Of a stretch of 64,000 nt of DNA, positions 7,844 through 60,045 are shown one piece after another. Under the pieces are notes generated by a model. That model saw nothing but the letters and a program-made list of their open reading frames with translations. It was not told where the DNA came from and made no database searches. The translations under genes and the position numbers were made by a program. This DNA is from Paenibacillus sp. FSL W8-0186. Its GTDB lineage: Bacteria; Bacillota; Bacilli; Paenibacillales; Paenibacillaceae. How positions within the stretch are numbered: position 1 is the stretch's first letter; each line of letters opens with the position of its first letter. The stretch spans positions 4,803,001 to 4,867,000 of the forward strand of contig NZ_CP150207.1 of NCBI RefSeq assembly GCF_037969765.1, in the 5' to 3' direction.

Positions 7844-9175
7844 CTATTTATTGTTAGCCAGGATGCCGTTCGCTTCCTGCCGGAACGCAGCAGCCGCTTT
7901 CTCCGGAGTCATCTGCCCGTAGTTGATCTGCTCCACCAGGTCGGCAAGGGAGGCGATCACCTGCGGCGAGCCTACCGGCGGGGCCGGGCTCATCGGTGAG
8001 CTCTTCTCTTCCATAGCCGCAACGAAGTCGAATACCTGCTTCTCCGGCTCCGACAATTCGGAGACGATCGCTTCTTTGATCGAAGCCGAGATTGGAACTC
8101 CGCGCTCACCCTTAATCATTTTGTTGGCTTCTACGTCGTTAATCCAGAAATCGATAAATTTCGCCGCTTCTTCCTTGTTCTTAGAATGAGAAGTGATCGA
8201 CCAGAACATGCTCGGCTGCATGTACAGGCCCTTCTCCATATCCGGTCCCATCATAGGCGCCAGCTCCATCGGCCGGTTGACCGCAGCCTGGAGTCCAACG
8301 TACTGGTTAGACCATTGCCATACGCCGACACCCATTCCTTTGACGATTTCCGATTCCTCCAAAATGCCTTTCGTTTGCGTCAGCTTCTCTTGGGAAGGAA
8401 CGGCGCCTTCTTTGATCAGCCTGGCCAGACGCCCGAAGAATTCGGTGAACAAAGCATCATCCTCATAGCCGAGCGCCGTACCTTCCTTGTTATACAGGGA
8501 ATATCCATGGGTACGAAGGAAGTAATGGAAGAAAATATCCGGCGCCATGGAGCCGTCCATGACATAACCCGCGTCTCTAACCTTCATGGCGATTTCCTCA
8601 TATTGATCCCAAGTCCAATTTTCGGGGATGCTGTCGACGCCGGCTTTGTTCAACAGCTCTGGGTCGTATTGAAATCCAAGCACGTTCACACCAGTCGGCA
8701 CGCCGTACTGGACGTCGTTGATTTTTCCCGTGGAAATCACATTATCGTTAACGTCATCAATTTTGATTTGATTGCCTATATAAGGCGTCAGGTCCTCAAG
8801 CTGGCCGTTTTTGGCGTATTGCACGATGTAAGAGATGTCCATTTGCACGATGTCCGGCAGCTGGTTCGCAGCCGCCTGGGGCGCGAGCTTCTTCCAATAG
8901 TCGTCAAATGCAGCATATTCGACGTCAATTTTGACATTCGGGTTCAGCTCCTGATACTTATCGACGATTTGCTGGGTATATTCATGGCGCTTATCGCCTC
9001 CCCACCAGGCAATTCTCAGCGTCGTTGTATCTTTTTTGCCCTTGCTCTCTTGTGCGGGCTTGTCATCGCCCCCTCCGTTACTCGCACCTCCGGTGCTGCC
9101 TCCGCCGCTGCAGGCAGGCAAAATGAACAGCAGGGCAACCAACATCCATAAAGCGGTTTTCTTCCTCACAAACAT
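7844..9175 (-). CDS. yesO: Extracellular sugar-binding lipoprotein, YesO-like
   Basis: A 443-residue solute-binding protein of the bacterial extracellular family 1. The signal peptide ends in a lipobox, LFILPACSGGG, so the mature protein should be lipid-anchored. A Gly/Ser-rich linker follows, then the binding fold starting TTLRIAWWGGDKRHEYTQQI. An AAAGGAG site precedes the ATG at 9175. A perfect-consensus cre-like site lies 27 bp upstream of the start codon. In the operon it supplies substrate to YesP/YesQ; rhamnogalacturonan oligosaccharides are the expected ligand because of the neighbouring hydrolase genes. Confidence 0.9.
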   Translation of the reverse strand: MFVRKKTALWMLVALLFILPACSGGGSTGGASNGGGDDKPAQESKGKKDTTTLRIAWWGGDKRHEYTQQIVDKYQELNPNVKIDVEYAAFDDYWKKLAPQAAANQLPDIVQMDISYIVQYAKNGQLEDLTPYIGNQIKIDDVNDNVISTGKINDVQYGVPTGVNVLGFQYDPELLNKAGVDSIPENWTWDQYEEIAMKVRDAGYVMDGSMAPDIFFHYFLRTHGYSLYNKEGTALGYEDDALFTEFFGRLARLIKEGAVPSQEKLTQTKGILEESEIVKGMGVGVWQWSNQYVGLQAAVNRPMELAPMMGPDMEKGLYMQPSMFWSITSHSKNKEEAAKFIDFWINDVEANKMIKGERGVPISASIKEAIVSELSEPEKQVFDFVAAMEEKSSPMSPAPPVGSPQVIASLADLVEQINYGQMTPEKAAAAFRQEANGILANNK

Positions 9176-48471: not shown

Positions 48472-49476
48472 TTACAAAATAGAGTACTCTTTCTGTACGT
48501 TTTGCTTCAAGTCATTTAATAAATTAAACAAATAACTGCGTTCTCTATTTAAATTGTCCTCCAAATTTCTCTTAATTCGCTCCAATATATTCGGATTCAA
48601 TGTTAAATTGTATTTAATAACTAAATTTCGCAATACCAAAAAATCATTTTTCAGCTCTATAATCGCTTCCAAAAAATTCGAACTATGCGAGACAACCTCT
48701 AGATCTAACAAATATTTTATTCGCATTTCCATTAAAACCTTATGTTCATAGAGTAAATGGAAACCCCGCCAATCCAGCTCCAACGATTGCTCTGCATTTG
48801 ATATATCAACCAATAGTCTATGATATGCATCAAAACCATAGTCAAATTCTTGATCCTGAATAAGGTCATAATTTTTTTTAGAAATCAGATAATTTTCTAT
48901 ATTAAATATGATTTGGGGCAAGTTAATCTCACAGGTGTATTCTTTCTTCTTTTTCAAATAACGGATATTCGTCATAAAATCATAATTACTTTTTATTGCC
49001 CAATAACCCTTTTCCACTTCATCAAAAGTGCATTCAGTTACAATAAACTTTCCGTTTTCTAGATTATCAGCAATGGTAAATGTGCTTTTATTTAAATCAT
49101 ATCCACATATTAATACTTCATGGGGAGAAGGATACTTTTGATATGAACTACTCTGCTTGAGATAGTACCTATCCACATAAATATATATATAATAGTCCAT
49201 TTCTAAAGCTTCGATAATTAAGTTTTTAATTTTTTTATCCCATTTATAGTCAACAACAGTCCGAGGAATTTCATAGTAGGATATTCCTGGGCAATTACTA
49301 AGAAGCCGGACATGATTATCAAAAGCAAAAATCCCCCAAGTATGAGCATATGTAATTTGAATAAAGTTATTATAGATCCATGGCCACAACCGATCATCCA
49401 TTATAGAGAATAAACAGCCGTAAGAAGTATACGTGCTGACTTCTGGTGTTCTCATATATAGATTTTTTTTTGACAT
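48472..49476 (-). CDS. BtrH/C39-like cysteine-peptidase-fold protein of unknown function
   Basis: The product is 334 residues, very AT-rich, without signal peptide. The N-terminal 180 residues resemble the BtrH N-terminal fold seen in natural-product clusters, which relates to C39 peptidases. Candidate residues are Cys21 in SYGCLFS, His119 in SPHEVLICGYD and Asp137 in TIADN, in the C39 order Cys-His-Asp. The C-terminal part (about 190-334) is helical and not recognised. BtrH itself transfers an acyl chain from a carrier protein; no carrier protein gene is visible here. It lies 0.5 kb downstream of the lasso-type operon on the same strand, behind terminators. A role in that pathway is possible but unproven. 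Confidence 0.6.
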   Translation of the reverse strand: MSKKNLYMRTPEVSTYTSYGCLFSIMDDRLWPWIYNNFIQITYAHTWGIFAFDNHVRLLSNCPGISYYEIPRTVVDYKWDKKIKNLIIEALEMDYYIYIYVDRYYLKQSSSYQKYPSPHEVLICGYDLNKSTFTIADNLENGKFIVTECTFDEVEKGYWAIKSNYDFMTNIRYLKKKKEYTCEINLPQIIFNIENYLISKKNYDLIQDQEFDYGFDAYHRLLVDISNAEQSLELDWRGFHLLYEHKVLMEMRIKYLLDLEVVSHSSNFLEAIIELKNDFLVLRNLVIKYNLTLNPNILERIKRNLEDNLNRERSYLFNLLNDLKQNVQKEYSIL

Positions 49477-49978: not shown

Positions 49979-52564
49979 CTAATCCATTTGAATGTTGGAC
50001 TTCTTGGACTCAGAAACCATTCTGGCTTCTTTGCTTCCTAATAGGAACGATAAGATAAAAGTAAAAACCACAACACATATTACAATATATATTTGTTCTC
50101 TTATAGCATTATAAATCTGACCATTGTCTATCTGTGAAAAGTATAAAGTGATGAGCCATCCCGTGATAACTCCGATAACAATTCCTATCATGCCAAATAA
50201 TCCACATTGAACGATAACAATTTTCCTAATTTGACCGTGGGTTGCACTTACCATACGAAGTATTGCCATTTCACGACGTTTCGTCAGGAGGATAGCCGAT
50301 AGATGATTAGCCATCCCGCTCAGTCCCATCATGAGCAACAACACAAAAGTCGCTCCCAATATCAAAATGCGCTCGGACATTTGCTTTGACAGCTCCTGCA
50401 ACTGAGTAGATCTGTCGCTCCAGTTGATTTCGTCATATTTATTCATTTGAAGCATCCTTATATGCTGATCTACAAGCGTTTTCTGGGTCGGATCAACGTA
50501 TAGCATGACACTATGCACATTGGGTTGATCCAGTCCTGTGAGCGCAGAGTTGTTCCAATCCAAAAGTAGCAGCGAGTCTTCGTTTGCATACAACTGATCT
50601 AATACTGCTGCAAACGTAACTTTCACCTGGCGGTAAGGGTCTTTATAATCTAAAGGAACGATAGAAAATTCCAAAGTATCCCCCTTCTTAACACCCAACA
50701 TTTCGGCGTAACGCGCTGTTATCATTACCGCATTTTGGGGTTCGATTTCTTGTGGCAATTGCAGATCAAGTTCCTTAACGAGAGAATGGATGTGAACCAG
50801 CTTATAGTTCGCTACTTCTCGTTTCAAAACAGGTTTATTGTGTTCATCTTTTATAAGTGGAGAAGGGGATGATTTTAAATTCAACCATTTCTGATTGCTC
50901 TTTGAGAAATCATAATTATCCAGAATTAATGTCCGATTGACGCTAACCGGAATAGCCGTTTTCACACCTGGTATTCGTTGCAAATCTTCTTGTATTTCTA
51001 ACGGAACAGTCGAACGCATGCTTTTATTGCTCGATACTAAAACATCAGAGATGTAATTTGACTCTATTTGCTTTAACATGTTATCTCCAACCCATGTATA
51101 AATCGTGACGATCGGAATAGTCAATGTCATGGATAAACCAATGATAATAACAGCCAATGTACTTTGGGCTCGTTGGAAAATCAGATTTTGAACAGCAATT
51201 TTGGATTCTATGCCTGCTATTCGTTCAAGGAGCGGGGACAATATGCGCAAAACAGGTGATATCCAAAAGGGAGTTAACATATAAAGAGAGCTGGAGATCA
51301 TTAATCCTCCTACAACATAGAACAGAACATGCAAGGAACTTTCTTGATCCCCCCATCTGCCTATGCCTGCGCAAAGAAGACTAATCACCAATAACCCGAC
51401 CGCTATCCATTTCTGAGTATTCCGTGGACGCAAATTTTCATCAAGTATCTCATTGAGGAATTCCATTGGTAAAACTTTTGAGGCTTTATAGGCAGGAATC
51501 AAGGAAGTTAAAAAAACAAATAAAGCGATGCTTATTGCAGTGACCGCAACGTATTCATATGAAATTGAAACTGAAAATAAAGGGATGGAAAGATACCGAG
51601 CCATCCAATCTATGGTTATTTTCGTTAATAATACACCTATAAGCGAGCCGAGAAATGATCCGATAATGGCAATCGTCAACCCCTCTATACAGACCATCAA
51701 TTTCAATTGACTCGGACTTCCACCGATCATACGTAGAAGAGCTAACTCTTTTTTTCTCTGTTGTACAGTAATGTAGAAACTACTCAGCATCATAAAACCA
51801 CTAGCAAACAAAACCATAATCCCTAATGCATATCCGATGACTAAAAAACTATTTAATTTATCTCCCTCTTCAGAGTCACCTACGATATCCACATCCGGTA
51901 TGGGATCAAAGTTGTCCTTCACAAACCGCGAAAACCTTTGCTTATCATGATCTTTGACTAAATCTATTAATAGAAGATTAACTTTTACGTCGCTTCCTAC
52001 AATCTCTTGCAGGGATTGCAAATGAAAAATGGCATAGTCCGGCAACGGGCCGTCTGGTCCGTAACGATCAGGGATAATTTCCTTTACGACCCAGGGCTGT
52101 GAAGATGGAAGAGACGGTATGGATGTTTTACCGTGTAATTCGACACCCCAACGTTCGGCAAGCCTCTCGGTCAACACAATTTCAAAGGGCTGCAGAGCTT
52201 GCGTGAATTTATAGGTCGATTTCGCAATTTCGGAATGATCAACCCCAACAACATAGAAGTCAGGAGAGAGCCCGGGAATTTTAGGCGCCGCCAATATTTG
52301 CGCAAAGCCTTGAACCATCGTACTGCTCGTAATTTGATCTATTTGTTCTGGGGTAAGTCCTTGTTCAGCAGTCCTATATCCCACCATAATATCTGTATAT
52401 CCAAATTGATCAAACTGTTGTTTTTTTATTGAAGCATGAAGCATTTGACCCAACAGCACCACACTAGTTAAAAGAACTGTACCTAGCATTACGCCGATGA
52501 GCATATAGATCATCCTACTCTTTTTCGCAAGAAGCATCTTCCAGGCTAGCATCAGAATAACCAT
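49979..52564 (-). CDS. FtsX-type ABC permease (MacB-like, two FtsX domains)
   Basis: The product is 861 residues. Membrane helices occur near the N-terminus (about 12-32), at about 240-360, 390-440, 470-500 and again at about 740-850, giving two FtsX permease units with large extracytoplasmic domains between them. The start at 52564 shares one base with the stop codon of the ATPase gene, so the two are coupled. Such pairs export or expel peptides and lipoproteins, or give immunity. In this operon self-resistance to, or release of, the cyclised peptide is the likely role. Confidence 0.85.
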   Translation of the reverse strand: MVILMLAWKMLLAKKSRMIYMLIGVMLGTVLLTSVVLLGQMLHASIKKQQFDQFGYTDIMVGYRTAEQGLTPEQIDQITSSTMVQGFAQILAAPKIPGLSPDFYVVGVDHSEIAKSTYKFTQALQPFEIVLTERLAERWGVELHGKTSIPSLPSSQPWVVKEIIPDRYGPDGPLPDYAIFHLQSLQEIVGSDVKVNLLLIDLVKDHDKQRFSRFVKDNFDPIPDVDIVGDSEEGDKLNSFLVIGYALGIMVLFASGFMMLSSFYITVQQRKKELALLRMIGGSPSQLKLMVCIEGLTIAIIGSFLGSLIGVLLTKITIDWMARYLSIPLFSVSISYEYVAVTAISIALFVFLTSLIPAYKASKVLPMEFLNEILDENLRPRNTQKWIAVGLLVISLLCAGIGRWGDQESSLHVLFYVVGGLMISSSLYMLTPFWISPVLRILSPLLERIAGIESKIAVQNLIFQRAQSTLAVIIIGLSMTLTIPIVTIYTWVGDNMLKQIESNYISDVLVSSNKSMRSTVPLEIQEDLQRIPGVKTAIPVSVNRTLILDNYDFSKSNQKWLNLKSSPSPLIKDEHNKPVLKREVANYKLVHIHSLVKELDLQLPQEIEPQNAVMITARYAEMLGVKKGDTLEFSIVPLDYKDPYRQVKVTFAAVLDQLYANEDSLLLLDWNNSALTGLDQPNVHSVMLYVDPTQKTLVDQHIRMLQMNKYDEINWSDRSTQLQELSKQMSERILILGATFVLLLMMGLSGMANHLSAILLTKRREMAILRMVSATHGQIRKIVIVQCGLFGMIGIVIGVITGWLITLYFSQIDNGQIYNAIREQIYIVICVVVFTFILSFLLGSKEARMVSESKKSNIQMD

Positions 52565-53331
52565 CAGATATCAACCTTTCCTTGCGATGCAAGTTGAAGA
52601 TCGACGATAACCGAAACCCGTTTATTGTGGTCACATTCCTTGTCATTAGCATGATCAAGAACCAGTTTGCCATCGTGTATAAAAATGACCCGATCCGCAT
52701 GTGCAGCCACTTGAGGATCGTGAGTAACTAACAGAATGGTTTGATTGCGATGTTTCTGAAGTTGAACCAGCAAAGACAAAATATGAGTGGTCGTTACCGA
52801 ATCCAAATTTCCAGTTGGTTCGTCAGCAAGCAATAGGCAAGGATTTTGCACGAGGGCTCTCGCGATCGCGACACGCTGCTGCTCCCCACCTGATAAAGTG
52901 TGAGGGTATTGTTTTCTTTTGTTAAGCAAACCTACCTTCTCAAGCAGATCTCTCGCTTTATCGTAAGCCTCTTTCTTCTTCACGCCTACCAGCAACAAGG
53001 GCATGGCAACATTGTCTTCGGCATTAATCGAGGCAATAAGATTAAAAAACTGGAATATGAATCCAACTTTTTCTCTTCGGTATTGTGTAGCATGTGGTTC
53101 AACGGAAATATCTTGCAAAGATTGACCATCGACTCGTATATTACCTTCCGACGGTTCAATCAATGCTCCGACAAGTTGTAGTAAGGTTGTTTTACCAGAG
53201 CCGCTTTTCCCCATGACGACAATGAATTCTCCACGTGATACAGCTAGGTTGATATCCTTAATGACATATGTCATTTCCGAATGCGTTGTATAGAATTTGC
53301 TGAGATTTTCTATTTCCAGAATCACAGTCAA
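52564..53331 (-). CDS. ABC ATPase (MacB/LolD type) partnered with the FtsX permease
   Basis: The product is 255 residues from a TTG at 53331, overlapping the preceding stop by 4 bases, with GAGGCG about 6 bases upstream; GTG 53325 is an alternative. It carries Walker [14 protein letters not shown], a Q-loop in [10 protein letters not shown], signature LSGGEQQR, Walker [14 protein letters not shown] and switch LVTHD. The [13 protein letters not shown] segment is typical of the MacB/LolD branch. The C-terminus has a short extra tail (about 230-255). It powers the FtsX-type permease encoded next. Confidence 0.9.
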
Positions 53332-55157
53332 AGTGCTCGCCTCGATTCGTTTTCTGTGTCTTGATACCATTGTGATTGGGTACGGTACATTTTAGCATAC
53401 TCCCCGTTTAACGAAAGTAATTCTTTATGGTTGCCAATTTCAATAATTTCCCCTTGCTTCATAACTAAGATACGATCGCATAATCGAGCTGGACCAAGCC
53501 GATGAGAAATGATAATACTTGTTTTCTGATTCGATAGTTGATGCATTTGTTGTATAATGTCTACTTCAGTACGCGGGTCTAGTGCAGCTGTCGGTTCATC
53601 TAGTATAACAATCTCTGCATTTTTCATTAAAGCTCTAGCTATCGCTACTCTCTGCCATTGTCCCCCTGAAAGTTCTTGTCCTGAAATGAACTGACTGCTT
53701 AATTTCGTTTCCAGACCCTGCGGTAATTGTTTTACTAAAGAATTTAAGCCTGTATTTTCAAGGACACCTCTAATTTTTTCATCATTTTCGATGTCTGCAA
53801 GATGACCGAAACCGACATTATCGCGTAACGACAGACGGTAGCGTACAAAATCCTGAAATACGCAAGTGACTTTTGCTAGGAAAGAAGTTTGATCGATTTC
53901 ACGGATATCTACCCCGCCAATTAATATCCGCCCCTGTGTTGGAGAATAGAGGCCTAGCATCAGTTGGACTAATGTTGTTTTACCCGCACCATTCTCCCCT
54001 ACGATAGCAATTTTTTCACCTTGCCTAATTTGGAGTGAAACATTCCGAATACTCTCTTTATGCTTCCCATATCGGAAACTAACTTCTTGGAATTCGATTG
54101 CGTGAAAATGAGGCTTTGGAAAAGGAAGAGTTCCTTGCCCCGTTTCGATATTCTTATTCAGAAATGAATAATAATGATTCAGATTAAATAGGCTCTCCCA
54201 CAGTTGCATTACCACTGCACTCAAACCGCCTACCAGACCCTGAATCATTAATACTGACGCAATTAATGCTACAAAACTACCAATACTAATTGCCCCATCT
54301 TTTACTTGCCAAAGTAATAGTAAACCCACAACAATCGCGGAAGATGTCATGAACATAGAACCAAAAGTACCGCCGAGAGCTTCTTGTTTTTTATTCTTTA
54401 GTTGGAACCCTCGAAAGTTTAACTGGATTTGTTTCCATCTCGATATCAGGTGTTCTGCAAGTTGAAAGATTCTTATTTCACGTGCCGATTCTTTAAGTTG
54501 CAATAATCGGTACAAATAATCCATCTCACGTCCTTCTTCCGTACTGTGGAGCGTAAAACGGAAACGTTTCTTTTTCGCAATAAATAGTAATAAAATACCG
54601 GGAATCGTAGACACAATTAATCCCAAGGGAAGAGCCCAACTAACGTATGCTAAAAGTCCGAATACACTAATGATTGTTAGTATAGTTTTCAACCCTTGAA
54701 ACAAGTACTGTATGAAATCAAAACATCCCATGTTTAATGCCGTTTGGGCCATCGTCATTTGATTAAAAAATGCATGATCTTCGAAGTGTTGAAGAGGGAC
54801 GGCGTTAATCTTCTTCAACAAGTCATGTTTCATCTTCATGTTGGCATCTTGCTGAACGATTGTGTAAATGTATTTTTGGATTTCTGTTATGGTAACCAAC
54901 ACGAATCCTGAGCCGTAGTAGATAAATAATGAAAACATAACGATGTAAATAGACCCTTGTCCTGTTGATAAAGTCGAAACTTGATCAATCAGAACTTTAT
55001 GAAGCCAGATTTGAACAGTAGGTATAAAGGCCAAAATAAACATAATAAAGATCCATGCAGACATCAATATAGGATGCGCTTTCCATCCAATCAAAAATAT
55101 TAATTTAATATGCCGTAATGAATCCAAAGATAAGCGGCGTATCCCCCCCTTGTTCAT
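53328..55157 (-). CDS. ABC exporter, fused permease-ATPase (lasso D-type)
   Basis: The product is 609 residues. Six membrane helices span about residues 20-320. The ATPase (about 355-590) has Walker A GENGAGKTTLVQL, signature LSGGQWQR, Walker B EIVILDEPTAALDP and switch ISHR. There is no C39 domain, as expected when B2 removes the leader. The gene starts 2 bp after the thioredoxin-like gene, inside the operon. It is the likely exporter of the mature peptide, matching the D protein of other lasso clusters. Confidence 0.9.
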   Translation of the reverse strand: MNKGGIRRLSLDSLRHIKLIFLIGWKAHPILMSAWIFIMFILAFIPTVQIWLHKVLIDQVSTLSTGQGSIYIVMFSLFIYYGSGFVLVTITEIQKYIYTIVQQDANMKMKHDLLKKINAVPLQHFEDHAFFNQMTMAQTALNMGCFDFIQYLFQGLKTILTIISVFGLLAYVSWALPLGLIVSTIPGILLLFIAKKKRFRFTLHSTEEGREMDYLYRLLQLKESAREIRIFQLAEHLISRWKQIQLNFRGFQLKNKKQEALGGTFGSMFMTSSAIVVGLLLLWQVKDGAISIGSFVALIASVLMIQGLVGGLSAVVMQLWESLFNLNHYYSFLNKNIETGQGTLPFPKPHFHAIEFQEVSFRYGKHKESIRNVSLQIRQGEKIAIVGENGAGKTTLVQLMLGLYSPTQGRILIGGVDIREIDQTSFLAKVTCVFQDFVRYRLSLRDNVGFGHLADIENDEKIRGVLENTGLNSLVKQLPQGLETKLSSQFISGQELSGGQWQRVAIARALMKNAEIVILDEPTAALDPRTEVDIIQQMHQLSNQKTSIIISHRLGPARLCDRILVMKQGEIIEIGNHKELLSLNGEYAKMYRTQSQWYQDTENESRRAL

Positions 55158-55159
55158 CC

Positions 55160-55693
55160 CTATTCACCCGTAAATTCAGGGAAGTTTTCTCGCTGTGCTT
55201 TTAGCCAAGACTCTAATTGTTGAACAGATACAATATCCCGGCGCAAAATAACTGATTTCTGATCTAATATTAAACCGAATGGAAATTTATTGACTTTTAA
55301 AAGACTAGTCATCTCTTTTCTGATCTGGTATACAGGAATTTCTGAAGGAATATCTATCGTTTCATCTTTTTTCCCATAATAAAGAATTCGAATTGGAATC
55401 ATTTGATCGTTATACTGTTTTGAAAGTTCTTTAAGTACGGCCACACAAAATTTACACCCGCCCGAGACGAGCAAAATAAAAGTAATATTATTTTCCTTAG
55501 CAATGCTTCGTAAGTATTGTGTGTCGTTTGCCGCTTCAACTGGAACATTCGGAATGCGCATACCGGGAGGCAATCCCCCCCCGTTTTTATGTTTTCGAAA
55601 TTGTAAAGCCAGAGTACATAGGAGCACAGTTTGAATACTCAATAACATCCAAAGAGCAAGTTGACTTTGCACAAAGATTCCTAACCTCCTCAT
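55160..55693 (-). CDS. Membrane-anchored thioredoxin-like protein, MauD/TlpA type
   Basis: The product is 177 residues. One N-terminal helix (about 12-31) anchors a soluble thioredoxin-like domain outside the membrane. The active site is GGCKFC, Cys80 and Cys83; KFPFGLILDQ near residue 145 carries the usual cis-Pro. MauD, the best-known relative, works with MauE to form disulfides in the methylamine dehydrogenase small subunit. Here two MauE-like genes lie directly upstream. The first ATG abuts the previous stop codon without a good ribosome site; GTG 55672 with AGGAGG upstream is an alternative start. It probably shuffles or forms disulfides in the Cys-rich precursor. Confidence 0.82.
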   Translation of the reverse strand: MRRLGIFVQSQLALWMLLSIQTVLLCTLALQFRKHKNGGGLPPGMRIPNVPVEAANDTQYLRSIAKENNITFILLVSGGCKFCVAVLKELSKQYNDQMIPIRILYYGKKDETIDIPSEIPVYQIRKEMTSLLKVNKFPFGLILDQKSVILRRDIVSVQQLESWLKAQRENFPEFTGE

Positions 55694-56206
55694 TTAATCG
55701 ATGAGACGAGAGATCATTCCAGTTCCAACCAAACAAAGAATTCCCATAAAAATGATAGCTATTGAACTAGGATCATGAATGGTGTGAAGCAGTTTAGTAT
55801 AATTTGTAGGCTGTATGCAAACAGGAATCCAATAGATGGTTAGGATTAGCGAATGCATCAAAGTTCCTAATCCCATCTCACCTGTTATTAATCTTCCAAA
55901 ACAATGGCAGGCGAGGTCTTTTTTCTCAAGCATCACTTTTGCATTCGCAATCACAAACGAGACAAACACAAGAAGCAAGGCAGCGAGCAACAGATACGAT
56001 TCTGAAGTAATAAATAAGATTACCGCTAGTATGACTTCCGCAAACGGCAGTAAAAAGCCAAAACCACGGGCAAGATAAGTCGGTAAAATCCCAACGGCAA
56101 TTGCACTTCTTATCGTACCTTGAATATCGTACATCTTACTAATACCAGACAAAAGGAGTGTAATCGCAATTGCATAAGCCATCAGAAGCGAAGTAATTTC
56201 CAACAT
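55694..56206 (-). CDS. MauE/DoxX-like integral membrane redox protein (second of pair)
   Basis: The product is 170 residues with about four to five membrane helices. It carries the MauE-type motif CHCFG (Cys100, Cys102) in the loop between helices. MauE proteins work with thioredoxin-like MauD in disulfide chemistry. The start at 56206 was chosen for AAGGAGG about 6 bases upstream. It lies 17 bp after its paralog and directly before the thioredoxin-like gene, so the three probably form one redox unit. Confidence 0.82.
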   Translation of the reverse strand: MLEITSLLMAYAIAITLLLSGISKMYDIQGTIRSAIAVGILPTYLARGFGFLLPFAEVILAVILFITSESYLLLAALLLVFVSFVIANAKVMLEKKDLACHCFGRLITGEMGLGTLMHSLILTIYWIPVCIQPTNYTKLLHTIHDPSSIAIIFMGILCLVGTGMISRLID

Positions 56207-56223
56207 TCGGCCCTCCTTCAATT

Positions 56224-56649
56224 TCATACTCCCAACAAATTAATACCGATAAATATTAAGACAACAGATAATATCGCACTGTTATTAACAAGATCACGAC
56301 TTGTAATCTCTTTAGGAGTGTTTAAGCCAAAACATCCACATCCATTCTTGAGTACAAGCCCTTTCCTTGGTATCAACACAAATAGAAATAGGATTTGCAA
56401 ACACGCAACCATCATGAAGCCAAACACCTGCATCCAAGGTACAACCAGCCAAAGGGCAGTGATGAGTTCAATTGCAGCAAGAAAGGGAGAAAGTACGGAT
56501 GCTTTTTTCTTGTTTGTCAATTTATAGTCCCCTGTAACGATACGGTAAAAGCCATACGCATTTCGTAATTTTTGTGTGCTGCTTTTATAGTAGATAACTG
56601 CCATTCCGATCGCAGTCATCCATTGGAGGATACCTAGCCAGTTAATCAT
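56224..56649 (-). CDS. MauE/DoxX-like integral membrane redox protein (first of pair)
   Basis: The product is 141 residues with about four membrane helices. It carries CGCFG (Cys104, Cys106), the same loop motif as the next gene. The start at 56649 overlaps the previous gene's stop by 8 bases and has AAAGGAAA upstream; ATG 56655 is also in frame. It is shorter than its paralog, lacking the long C-terminal part. A pair of MauE-like proteins may act as a heterodimer or pass electrons in turn. Confidence 0.8.
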   Translation of the reverse strand: MINWLGILQWMTAIGMAVIYYKSSTQKLRNAYGFYRIVTGDYKLTNKKKASVLSPFLAAIELITALWLVVPWMQVFGFMMVACLQILFLFVLIPRKGLVLKNGCGCFGLNTPKEITSRDLVNNSAILSVVLIFIGINLLGV

Positions 56650-57082
56650 GCTCATTTTCCTTTTCAAAATGTTTAATAAACTCTACGATTTGATTTTTAT
56701 ATTCAGAGTCAAATCTGTTTAGGACAATCATATCCTGGTCCAAGATCCCTTCCTTAACGCATCCAAGTGACGGATAAAAATAATCAGTAATCCCTTGAAA
56801 CATAGACAGATCGCTAGAACTAAACATAGAAATGTCATAAATAAGAATCTTTTCTCTCTCAATATGTTGGCAAATGAAATCTCTCATCTTCCGAGTATTC
56901 GGATAACGCGTAAAATCAAGACATAAAGCAAAGCCAGTAAACCCTCCATACAATTTATTCCTAACTTCTCTAACAGGCATCATGCTCGCTAAAGCACTCT
57001 CTTGCTGAAAGATCTGTCTCCTAGCGGTTATCACAAGGATCAATATGAGTGCTAAGCTAATGGATAAAGAAGATATTATCAT
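56642..57082 (-). CDS. Unrecognised small membrane-anchored protein in the redox block
   Basis: The product is 146 residues. An N-terminal helix (MIISSLSISLALILILVITA) is followed by a soluble domain of about 115 residues. The soluble part alternates strands and helices (e.g. GFALCLDFTRYPNTRKMRDFI, then ILIYDISMF), which could be a thioredoxin-like fold, but there is no CxxC; single Cys residues occur in LCLDF, FICQH and LGCVKEG. It lies directly after the precursor gene and is translationally coupled to the first MauE-like gene. Its position suggests a helper in peptide maturation. No family is recognised. Confidence 0.6.
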   Translation of the reverse strand: MIISSLSISLALILILVITARRQIFQQESALASMMPVREVRNKLYGGFTGFALCLDFTRYPNTRKMRDFICQHIEREKILIYDISMFSSSDLSMFQGITDYFYPSLGCVKEGILDQDMIVLNRFDSEYKNQIVEFIKHFEKENEHD

Positions 57083-57117: not shown

Positions 57118-57447
57118 TGTGCGTACCTGCAATTAGATTACCTAATGATATAGATTAGCAATCGCTATCAGAACTGCATTGATCCCTTGGTTGAGACGTT
57201 GTACACATGGAAGCTGACCCACAATGACAATCACCAAAGGTGGCGCAAGTTACCGTCATAATACAGTCGGAGTAAGTATATTTATAATATCCCGTTTTGT
57301 CTGCCCACCAATTTTCAGTGCCCCAGTCGCAATCACCTTTGATCAAATTGCTTGAATCTCCGTAAATAGTAAGCATTGGAGTTGAATAATTCATTAGAAT
57401 TCCTCCCAAATAATTTGTATTTTAAACTCCCTTTGCGGGTACGCACA
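57118..57447. repeat. Inverted repeat bracketing the precursor gene
   Basis: TGTGCGTACCTGCAA at 57118-57132 and the reverse complement of TGTGCGTACCCGCAA at 57433-57447 match in 14 of 15 positions. They enclose 300 bp holding the whole precursor gene and its ribosome site. Both copies are intergenic. No flanking target duplication is visible. Confidence 0.6.
57155..57394 (-). CDS. Lasso-type RiPP precursor with 60-residue, eight-cysteine core
   Basis: The product is 79 residues. The leader is residues 1-19: Y3-x2-P6-x-L8-x3-G12, the pattern read by lasso B1 proteins, then I18-K19. Lasso leaders normally have Thr two residues before the core; here it is Ile. The predicted core starts at Gly20 and runs to Cys79. 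Gly1 and Glu8 of the core (GDCDWGTE) fit an 8-residue macrolactam ring. The tail has an aromatic stretch (WW, then YYKYTY) and Cys at core positions 3, 25, 31, 37, 39, 45, 54 and 60. Usual lasso cores are about 15-30 residues. The start at 57394 was chosen for GGGAGGAA 5 bases upstream. The gene lies between the cyclase and redox genes. Ring position and processing are inferred. Confidence 0.8.
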   Translation of the reverse strand: MNYSTPMLTIYGDSSNLIKGDCDWGTENWWADKTGYYKYTYSDCIMTVTCATFGDCHCGSASMCTTSQPRDQCSSDSDC

Positions 57448-57466: not shown

Positions 57467-59254
57467 TCATGAAACACTCGTTTTTTGTTCAAGCCTATAA
57501 AGCCAAATCTCGATCGCCATTAGAACCCATATGTCATCTCTTGTCAAATGGCCTTGTCTCCACAGCTCTAAAGCTGCTCGCCATTCTTTCAAGTCGATAA
57601 ACCCAAATCGACATACTCTTCCTTTTTCAATAGCGGGATAAAGAACCGGCCAACTCTGCCGCAAACCTTGAAAGGTTAGCGAGAGATGATCGGTTTTGTT
57701 TTCCCTCCAAATCACATCATTAGGCAATTTGTTCTGCATCGTACGCCTAAGTAACCACTTCGGCGTTCCGGCATTCCAGCACAGCTCTCCCGGAATCGAA
57801 TATAGGAATTCAATTAATCGCCGGTCAAGAAATGGATGGCTAATATCAACGCCAAATTCCGCTGCTATAACTCGATCAGAAAAAATGCGTGCTTTTGTTC
57901 CCGAAATTTGACGGAAAAAATTTTTTTTATTAAACGTATTTATTTGTTTTAGCTCATCGATATATTCTTCTTTTCGATCGGTAGTCCACTCTTTTATTAA
58001 TCCGAGATTAAGATGAGGGGCAATCGCACTATGCCAGAGTACTTTCGGGACAGACAATCGTCTATGAAGTGCGAACGGATAAATATGACTAAACAAGGCT
58101 TTTATTTTAAGCTGTCCAGCTAGATCTGCGAGAACAACTTCTGATCCTCCCAGAACATGGTCACCACCATAACCAGTCAGGATCGTCTTTGCTCCTTCCT
58201 TAACGCTTCGCTCAATTGTTGCTCTAGTCAAGGCATATGTCGCGGCGTTGACAGCAGGTTCGAATGAAAACGATACGTCTTGAGGAAAATTGTAAAATAC
58301 TCCATAGTCGTCGCAAACTTCGAAGCGCGGTTCGACCTCGTATTGTTGAAGAACAGGATGAATATATTCCCTTTCATCGCTTGACTTATGAAGATTAAAG
58401 ATTCCGCTTACCGCAAAAGTCTTATAACCGGAATTGAACTGGGATAGATGTTGTGCAATCGCAAAAACAGATGTGGAATCCAACCCGCCACTCATCAAGA
58501 CAGCATTGGGATGTGTAGAATTAAGCCGATATTGAACGCTCTCCGCTAATAGATGGAATAAGTGCTCGGTATATTCACTCAAATCTCGATAGTTAAACGA
58601 TTGATTGACATTCGATATACTCCAATAGCGTTGAGTACTTGCTCCTCTAGGATCAACCGATACCCTCGCTCCGCTCCGAACCCGAAATAAACCTTTAAAT
58701 GGTGTGATTTCATTGTCGGCGCTTGCATTCGACTTATAGAAATCGAAAAAATACTCGTCGTTAAGATGCTGTAACCGTATACAAGATTCCATTAAAAAAA
58801 TGTCACTAGCAAAGTAAAGTGTCGTTTCTTGAAGAGACCAAAATAATGTCTTTATTCCAAGCTGATCGCGAACGAATATTGCTTGATGACGAGATGTATC
58901 CCAGATCAAAAATGAAAATTCTCCAAGCAATAGGGCAAATACATCGAGCCCCTTTTCTAGAAACAAGTGTAAAATAAGTTGTTCATCGGATATGTCTGCG
59001 CCTAATAAGGGCAACAGAGTTAAAAGCTCTTTTCGATTGTCAAGCCGTACATCGCCAACAAAATAACAATTGTCATTGTGTGTAATGGGATTATGTTCAT
59101 AGGAAGAATCCATGCTGAAAAAGGCAAACGATTTTTGAATGATTTGATGTTTGTAGACGTTGTAATTAAAAGGGGTGTTACGATTTATCCTTTCAATCTC
59201 TTCAAGTGAAAGCTCAGAATGATCAAGCTTTATAACTCCTGAGAACCATCGCAT
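57467..59254 (-). CDS. Lasso cyclase C, asparagine-synthetase-like
   Basis: The product is 595 residues. The N-terminal class II glutamine amidotransferase-like domain (1-200) begins MRWFSGV and lacks the Cys2 needed for glutaminase activity, as expected for lasso C proteins. The synthetase domain has the pyrophosphate loop SGGLDST (255-261) and the GYGGDHVLGG loop (361-370). The family adenylates an Asp/Glu side chain of the core and closes the lactam on the N-terminal amine. It starts 6 bp after the B2 gene. The gene ahead of it encodes the protease and the gene after it the precursor, the expected partners. Confidence 0.9.
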   Translation of the reverse strand: MRWFSGVIKLDHSELSLEEIERINRNTPFNYNVYKHQIIQKSFAFFSMDSSYEHNPITHNDNCYFVGDVRLDNRKELLTLLPLLGADISDEQLILHLFLEKGLDVFALLLGEFSFLIWDTSRHQAIFVRDQLGIKTLFWSLQETTLYFASDIFLMESCIRLQHLNDEYFFDFYKSNASADNEITPFKGLFRVRSGARVSVDPRGASTQRYWSISNVNQSFNYRDLSEYTEHLFHLLAESVQYRLNSTHPNAVLMSGGLDSTSVFAIAQHLSQFNSGYKTFAVSGIFNLHKSSDEREYIHPVLQQYEVEPRFEVCDDYGVFYNFPQDVSFSFEPAVNAATYALTRATIERSVKEGAKTILTGYGGDHVLGGSEVVLADLAGQLKIKALFSHIYPFALHRRLSVPKVLWHSAIAPHLNLGLIKEWTTDRKEEYIDELKQINTFNKKNFFRQISGTKARIFSDRVIAAEFGVDISHPFLDRRLIEFLYSIPGELCWNAGTPKWLLRRTMQNKLPNDVIWRENKTDHLSLTFQGLRQSWPVLYPAIEKGRVCRFGFIDLKEWRAALELWRQGHLTRDDIWVLMAIEIWLYRLEQKTSVS

Positions 59255-59260
59255 CGTATT

Positions 59261-59671
59261 TTATTTCAATCCTTTCGAACTTAGGATGATAATAAATTGT
59301 TTTGTATATCCCTCGTCTTCATTAATGTTTTTATCATTAAGAACAAGCCATGCGTGTGAGGAGAATGGAAACTTTTTGACTCCGATCACTAAATCTACAG
59401 GTATAGAGCATTTTGTCCTAACAAATCGAAAACCGAGAAATGACCGATGTAAACATTCTGCTTTAAATGGAGCCAGTGCGCATACCATATCGATTATACG
59501 CAGTAAGTGATTCATTCGATCGATATGTTTTCGTTCATTTTCTGAATGCTTGGATATCGGATATCGTTCAACATATTTAGGGAAAATCTTTTGAAAACCG
59601 TATATTCGAAGTTCGATTTGAAATCGAATAAGAGCAAATACGATCTGTATAAATTGGAAGGAGTTTCTCAT
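59261..59671 (-). CDS. Lasso leader protease B2 (transglutaminase-like)
   Basis: The product is 136 residues, the usual size of stand-alone B2 proteins. The catalytic Cys73 lies in AECLHRSFLG and His106 in FSSHAWLVLND; an acidic residue at 118-119 completes a Cys-His-Asp/Glu triad with McjB-like spacing. It cuts off the leader to free the core amine for ring closure. It overlaps the B1 gene by 4 bases (ATGA) and precedes the cyclase gene. Confidence 0.88.
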   Translation of the reverse strand: MRNSFQFIQIVFALIRFQIELRIYGFQKIFPKYVERYPISKHSENERKHIDRMNHLLRIIDMVCALAPFKAECLHRSFLGFRFVRTKCSIPVDLVIGVKKFPFSSHAWLVLNDKNINEDEGYTKQFIIILSSKGLK

Positions 59672-59922
59672 GATCTATGTACCAACCCGTTTCGGATGAG
59701 ATCACTTAATAGGACCTCGAGGTCGCGACGTACAATGACCGGATCAGCTTTATATGTCTTTTCAAAATATTGATAAATTTCATTCATTTCCGTAGTAAAT
59801 AAGAGCTTCCAAAATTCGCTCCCAATATGATTTAGCCCATAAAACTGCCCTGTTCGCAAGTTGAGCAGAACAAACTCTCCATTTTCTTGAGCTTCATAAA
59901 TCTGATCGTCTTTTCTAAACAT
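59668..59922 (-). CDS. Lasso leader-binding protein B1 (PqqD-like RRE)
   Basis: The product is 84 residues. It is a PqqD-like RiPP recognition element: a three-stranded sheet (QIYEAQENGEFVLLNLRTGQFYGL), then helices (GSEFWKLLF, DLEVLLSDLIRNGLV). Such proteins bind the leader and hand it to B2. The start at 59922 was chosen for GGAGAGGG about 5 bases upstream; TTG 59937 is unlikely. It is the first gene of the lasso-type operon. The start of transcription lies in the gap upstream, where two copies of an 11-bp direct repeat are found. Confidence 0.88.
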   Translation of the reverse strand: MFRKDDQIYEAQENGEFVLLNLRTGQFYGLNHIGSEFWKLLFTTEMNEIYQYFEKTYKADPVIVRRDLEVLLSDLIRNGLVHRS

Positions 59923-60045
59923 CTTAACCCTCTCCAAACGTCAGCTTTGTCACCTTCACACAAATTCAAGCCTCAATCTCATTCCTACCAAACGAAATTT
60001 GACAGAAGTTCTGAAAGTAAATATGACATAAAGAGCCTTAAAAAA

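Follow-up and report, generated by a model that had tools for sequence, protein, structure and literature searches.

The window, the 64,000-nucleotide stretch of Paenibacillus DNA analysed here, carries a lasso-type operon whose precursor gene, A, probably specifies a 60-residue product with an eight-residue Gly1-Glu8 lasso ring, one disulfide from ring to tail and three further disulfides within the tail. Gene A belongs to a family of precursors with a conserved ring motif and even numbers of core cysteines, and the family is linked to a set of redox genes. These features are observed, whereas the lactam, the threading, the disulfides with their connectivity and an antibacterial role are predicted. 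The operon lies on the minus strand and runs in the order B1, B2, C, A, a 146-aa protein, MauE1, MauE2, a TlpA/MauD-like protein, an ABC exporter, a LolD/MacB-type ATPase and an FtsX-type permease:

59668..59937, minus strand: B1, PqqD-like RiPP recognition element (RRE), 89 aa (PF05402, E 1.6e-12)
59261..59671, minus strand: B2, transglutaminase-fold leader peptidase, 136 aa (PF13471, E 1.4e-16)
57467..59254, minus strand: C, asparagine-synthetase-like macrolactam cyclase, 595 aa (PF00733, Asn_synthase, E 2.5e-36)
57155..57394, minus strand: A, lasso-type precursor, 79 aa (translation)
56642..57082, minus strand: small protein, 146 aa, with a hydrophobic N-terminus and no CxxC (its profile matched in 9 of 13 family loci)
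56224..56667, minus strand: MauE-like membrane protein 1, with CxC (PF07291, E 9.6e-13)
55694..56227, minus strand: MauE-like membrane protein 2, with CxC (PF07291, E 9.5e-17)
55160..55693, minus strand: TlpA/MauD-like thiol-disulfide oxidoreductase, with CxxC (CKFC; weak MauD and PedC/BrcD matches under cut-off)
53328..55157, minus strand: D, ABC exporter with membrane and ATPase domains (PF00664, PF00005)
52564..53370, minus strand: LolD/MacB-type ABC ATPase (PF00005, E 1.2e-35; TIGR02211, 240 bits, under cut-off)
49979..52564, minus strand: FtsX/MacB-type permease, partner of the LolD/MacB-type ATPase (PF02687, E 1.4e-22)

The initial annotation had placed B1, B2 and C genes beside a small lasso-type precursor gene, and we found domain matches for all three. 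B2 scored 56.4 bits against NF033537 (lasso_biosyn_B2; cut-off 33), B1 matched lasso PqqD models with scores under cut-off, and the top NCBIfam model for C was lass_lactam_cya (265 bits, under the cut-off of 525). The TlpA/MauD-like protein had no Pfam match. For the 146-aa protein no Pfam family exceeded the cut-off and there were sub-threshold matches only, such as a PDB 'Thioredoxin signature protein' at E 0.66, a faint hint that it might perhaps be a thioredoxin-fold partner. The LolD/MacB-type ATPase is likely to act in immunity or in a second export step. At the end of the operon region, a 334-residue protein (48472-49476) gave a weak BtrH_N match (E 0.0012, under cut-off).

Re-translation of gene A from 57394 to 57155 on the minus strand gave 79 residues and a stop codon. 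A ribosome-binding sequence, GGGAGG, stands seven bases 5' of the ATG at 57394, which was therefore preferred as the start over the TTG, 15 bases further upstream, from which the mechanical list of open reading frames begins the gene. The leader comprises 19 residues with the YxxPxL...G motif and Ile at -2, and ends in Lys19. The core begins at Gly20 of the precursor with GDCDWGTE and is 60 residues long; its eight cysteines are at core positions 3, 25, 31, 37, 39, 45, 54 and 60, and 52 residues lie downstream of the ring. Leader pattern, Gly1 and Glu8, core length and cysteine positions were all as first annotated. The core has no recognisable miniprotein family (knottins, defensins) in Pfam and no relevant solved structure by sequence; the best PDB match of the precursor profile was the lasso leader TbiA at E 1.1, below significance, and besides it there was one unrelated chance match (E 1.5). 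An AlphaFold model of the precursor, with a hairpin in the tail, had low confidence (mean pLDDT 57) and was kept out of the evidence. That gene A is a chance open reading frame was ruled out by homologues with a conserved motif.

A first search found the same gene in one other genome (G004, 95%), relatives at 37-49% in two further genomes and a metagenome protein at 72%; the remaining weak genomes among the 28 listed beyond the best four (E 0.0016 to 0.098) were taken as chance. With the alignment as query, a wider search of a large protein database gave 38 proteins from Paenibacillus, Lysinibacillus, Priestia, a Bacillus MAG and metagenomes. Together with seven precursors from genome loci they form a set of 45 from Bacillales and metagenomes, with cores of 33-67 residues. 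Matches were present in 11 of 394 genomes of the bacterial family (window genome included, one of the 11 cut at a contig end), in 5 of 398 genomes of the class (final profile, E 0.001; window genome and two distant ones included) and in 1 of 398 genomes of the phylum sample, the window's own. The precursor of G790, cut at a contig end, was left out of the counts, and weak class matches in G389, G396 and G085 (E 0.004-0.007) were absent from the improved-profile search of the 398 class genomes.

Named hosts include P. bouchesdurhonensis, P. cellulosilyticus, P. phyllosphaerae and Paenibacillus sp. SC116, and where the source gives a name the family proteins are annotated as hypothetical or uncharacterised. 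The sole plasmid match was to a 2.7 Mb plasmid record of P. cellulosilyticus, with no gene listed under the match in an incomplete gene table. Among phage contigs two stretches fitted the pattern, neither of them a relative. The initial annotation had suggested that homologous precursors beside B1, B2 and C genes would reveal a family, and profiles for B1, B2 and C matched in all 13 fetched loci.

The loci vary in layout. The gene order differs in L044, L045, L046 and L048, where A comes first; L048 has an FtsX-type permease (by eye) between MauE1 and MauE2, and L044, L045 and L046 have a similar-sized gap. Small winged-helix regulators (Trans_reg_C) lie upstream of B1 in L022 (4299-4598) and L023 (4539-4898), and there is none at that place in the window's list of open reading frames. 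L051 and L052 have cores of 39-41 residues of the type GC.GWG.E or GC.GLG.E with four cysteines, L052 with two precursors in tandem, and are likely to form a sister subfamily. In L051, a distant locus, the C gene is in three pieces and the locus may be broken.

Across the family the ring motif is G1-x-C3-x-[WFIL]5-G6-x-E8. Gly1, Gly6 and Glu8 are invariant in the 45 precursors, and each precursor has exactly one ring cysteine; 42 have it at position 3, and the three remotest members at position 2. Trp occupies position 5 in 36 precursors, Phe in six, Ile in two and Leu in one. In the leader, Y3, P6 and G12 are invariant among 37 aligned precursors and the lasso motif YxxPxL...G is present. At position -2, 43 of the 45 precursors carry Ile, one carries Thr and one Val, so the usual lasso Thr(-2) is mostly absent. 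As Ile(-2) is functional in one lasso system, that of Bradymonas (PMC10368454), this residue does not disqualify the family from lasso membership.

Conservation continues past the ring, with Asn9 in 38, Leu12 in 35, Asp13 in 42, Lys14 in 40, Thr15 in 40 and Gly16 in 39 of the 45 precursors. Such strong conservation from Asn9 to Gly16 is expected of a loop that passes the ring, and B1, B2 and C are all of lasso kind. Both points argue against a product in which the lactam ring forms around no chain, that is, a branched-cyclic (lariat) peptide that carries a cystine-rich domain but lacks a mechanical bond. We regard the unthreaded form as unlikely, even though a ring-tail disulfide would make a mechanical bond needless for stability and no bulky plug residues could be assigned by eye in the varied tails.

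Every one of the 44 intact cores has an even number of cysteines (six in 24, four in 14, eight in five and two in one); as these are related sequences and not 44 independent events, we give no exact probability. Precursor P0006 was dropped from this count as a likely broken copy: its first 46 residues match P0004, the remainder differs, and its longest contig is 1.45 kb; its cysteine count (two) is also even. With the tails thinned so that none shared 50% identity or more, all 18 remaining cores were even; for sixteen other residues, even counts occurred in between 11 (Trp) and 30 (Leu) of the 44. Thirteen precursors have leader cysteines, which make 12 full-length precursors odd; the rule thus holds only when cysteines are counted from the predicted cleavage site. 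The tail count is always odd (1, 3, 5 or 7), and with an even total this leaves one cysteine for the ring.

These counts bear on two proposals of the initial annotation. The first, that the ring cysteine could be stapled to the tail by a disulfide, is supported by an even core count that needs the ring cysteine included. The second set conservation of the cysteine-rich tail in homologues as a test, and the tail is indeed retained across the family, with even counts in every intact core. The same results weigh against a cysteine-rich part that serves as a follower or helps folding and is later removed, so that an ordinary lasso of some 16-25 residues remains. Cys3 would then stay unpaired, yet parity is even only with ring and tail together; cysteine is the very last residue in 34 of the 45 precursors; the tails have no common cutting site by eye; and B2 is the sole peptidase-type domain among the Pfam matches of ten operon proteins. 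Known lasso peptides are of that smaller size and the best-conserved part is the first 16 core residues, but we consider removal of the tail quite improbable and take the full-length core as the likely product.

In a MAFFT alignment of 37 proteins the cysteines fall into eight patterns and are gained and lost in pairs, with columns that depend on a gappy alignment in which short loops could be placed otherwise. Cysteines 3 and 39 occur jointly in 37 of 37; 45 and 60 are found together in 36 of 36 and are both absent in P0024; and 25 and 54 accompany each other in 11 of 11. Nineteen of the 37 have a loop pair ahead of Cys39, four of these being of the eight-cysteine type with the pair at 31 and 37. 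The simplest reading of this joint gain and loss would be disulfides 3-39, 45-60, 25-54 and 31-37, with 3-39 and 45-60 the least sure of the four since they depend on one protein, P0024. P0024 itself has a 33-residue core with two cysteines only.

To compare the genes around the family precursors with those of other lasso loci, we took the window and three relatives (L022, L023 and L027) as seeds for profiles and ran these on 13 family and 40 control loci. The controls were 40 of 112 B2 sites listed for the same bacterial family (93 of 157 genomes matched); none is a family locus, and some are short at contig ends (L118, 3.1 kb; L121, L122, L103). The trio of MauE1, MauE2 and TlpA-like gene was complete in the window as well as in 10 of the 13 family loci, three of these ten having served as profile seeds. 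L049 is cut by the contig end directly after C, and in the distant L051 and L052 MauE1 is accompanied by a DsbA-like gene (named by eye), in L052 also by a VKOR-like gene (by eye). Where the 146-aa partner profile is concerned, L050 has a similar-sized protein in its place. The MauE, TlpA-like and 146-aa partner profiles matched in 0 of 40 control loci, giving a Fisher p of 2e-11 for the redox set (11/11 versus 0/40, with L049, L051 and L052 left out).

The four-seed profiles recognised the known B2 in only part of the control loci, so that their failure to match MauE there counts for little. Because these profiles are narrow, whole genomes were then searched with the Pfam MauE model as a second control. 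In all ten family genomes given, the lasso locus contained two MauE proteins over cut-off; for each of the 40 controls no MauE came within 30 kb of B2, with many control genomes carrying MauE elsewhere; TlpA-like genes in the controls were sought with our own profile only. The redox motifs are conserved: CxC in 13 of 13 MauE1 and 11 of 11 MauE2 proteins, and CxxC in 11 of 11 TlpA-like proteins.

A motif scan found cores of 39-63 residues with 4-8 cysteines in 12 of 13 family loci. In the control loci it found a precursor in 19 of 40, with cores of 21-40 residues and zero cysteines, and no precursor in the other 21. Two long cysteine-bearing frames in the controls (L099, L122) were taken as spurious, and control locus L115 has four near-identical precursor copies with 22-residue cores. 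In a tree of 31 C proteins, the 13 of MauE type fell on one side of a branch of moderate support (85/79, 86% of bootstrap trees), some control branches being long. That the cysteines instead bind metal, for which two or four cysteine pairs could serve, or carry another modification such as a thioether is highly improbable given the CxC MauE-like and CxxC TlpA-like genes in the operon, the gain and loss of single cysteine pairs down to one pair, which fits disulfides better than metal, and the lack of any radical-SAM or lanthipeptide enzyme over cut-off among the ten operon proteins (LipS1 and LANC_like were weak and below it).

Comparison with close relatives gave further information on the operon. 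In G004 it is 94.9% identical to the window over 10.2 kb and occupies a different chromosomal place; the glmS stretch that neighbours the window operon is 87% identical in G004. The G+C content is 39.4% in the operon versus 54.6% in glmS. Genome G599, of the same species, matches the window at 95.8% identity as far as 53360, beyond which the whole stretch from exporter D to B1 is missing, and a profile search of that genome found no precursor. Both LolD (266 residues) and FtsX (861 residues), which border the gap, are intact. The BtrH_N-like gene is also retained in G599, and a very long open frame, by eye a non-ribosomal peptide synthetase, adjoins the gap (L126, G599:C68:162000-181000; 7947-8357). 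Retention of the ABC pair alone fits an immunity role for LolD/FtsX. We infer that this pair gives self-immunity, which points to an antibacterial product.

Taken with the gene content, these observations suggest a route of maturation. B1 would bind the precursor leader and B2 would cleave it after Lys(-1). C would then close the ring in the cytosol, between the amine of Gly1 and the side chain of Glu8, with the tail reduced and unfolded; since the long tail would still be in that state, folding should not block threading. C-terminal extensions are tolerated by astexin-1, pandonodin and others (PMC13352647). ABC exporter D would move the ring-closed peptide out of the cell, where the TlpA/MauD-like oxidoreductase would form the disulfides, likely recharged to its oxidised form by the MauE-like pair; MauE has been speculated to aid disulfide formation in methylamine dehydrogenase (PMC7794033). 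The last staple would be that from Cys3 of the ring to the tail. Disulfide enzymes are dispensable in two class I lasso systems (PMC9266682), and the redox genes therefore do not by themselves prove disulfides.

Lasso peptides are divided into classes I-IV by their disulfides, with two, none, one ring-tail and one tail-tail, respectively (PMC9266682, PMC13352647). The window precursor fits none of them. Class I (siamycin/MS-271 and sviceucin, from Streptomyces) resembles it in having ring-tail disulfides and a pair of genes for a DoxX-family and a thioredoxin-domain protein in the cluster (PMC9266682), so redox genes in a lasso cluster are an already known idea. MS-271, however, has 21 residues, two disulfides and an N-terminal Cys1 (PMC10406935), whereas the window family, from Bacillales, has Gly1 instead of Cys1, a single ring cysteine in 45 of 45 (Cys3 in the window), up to four predicted disulfides, and two MauE-like proteins with a TlpA-like one. 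Class III (BI-32169) also has one ring cysteine paired with the tail (PMC9266682). It differs in its single disulfide and 19 residues, compared with eight cysteines in the window precursor; only P0024, possibly a natural class III form, would fit. Class IV (LP2006, pandonodin) shares a tail-internal disulfide. The LP2006 core also has W5-G6-x-E8-N9 in common with the window family. LP2006 and pandonodin are without a ring cysteine, which the family has in 45 of 45, and have one disulfide, pandonodin being 33 residues long (PMC13352647).

Other lasso systems share single features. Paeninodin-type systems come from the same bacterial family (Paenibacillaceae) and have separate B1 and B2 genes and a C enzyme, but their cores are cysteine-free and of 21-40 residues in 19 of 40 controls, MauE/TlpA are found in 0 of 40, and their C proteins lie on the other side of the tree. 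Bradymonas BsfA likewise has Ile in place of Thr at leader -2, but it is a deltaproteobacterial lasso precursor that is phosphorylated, with a dedicated kinase (PMC10368454). No kinase family exceeded its cut-off among the matches listed for the ten operon proteins, the two ABC ATPases included. The lasso-associated phosphopeptides (LPP) of Bacillota were considered and set aside; they use phosphorylation and a signal-peptidase-like enzyme (PMC13381572).

In size, too, the product stands apart. The longest lasso tail named in a 2026 review is that of pandonodin, with 18 residues and 33 in all, and for the largest loop the review gives 30 (PMC13352647). The predicted window product would be nearly twice as long as the 33-residue pandonodin; its 60 residues, 52 of them after the ring, lie far beyond the described sizes, which form a range and not a chemical definition. 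The literature searched has no description of a long cysteine-rich lasso peptide, although some precursors may stand in survey tables, and nothing on one was found in PMC6784204, PMC7533575 and PMC8621785. Within that literature the initial claim that no lasso/miniprotein hybrid had been described holds.

On balance, we favour the view that the family represents a new structural class of ribosomal peptide and a fifth lasso class, spread over Bacillales and holding between one and four disulfides. Its members would be interlocked miniproteins, 50-67 residues long, whose lasso ring is first threaded and then fastened through a disulfide to a cystine-rich domain with one to three more disulfides; the lactam would form inside the cell, and oxidation would take place outside by means of a dedicated MauE/TlpA set. 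If this is so, lasso chemistry reaches beyond small peptides and nature has joined a mechanical bond to a protein-sized, disulfide-rich domain, with the ring cysteine as a built-in staple. The ladder of two, four, six and eight cysteines would form a natural series on how disulfides and threading share stability, and because the redox set tracks cysteine-rich precursors here, the open question of whether lasso disulfides need enzymes becomes testable. The operon would also provide machinery to export and fold large lasso scaffolds made by engineering.
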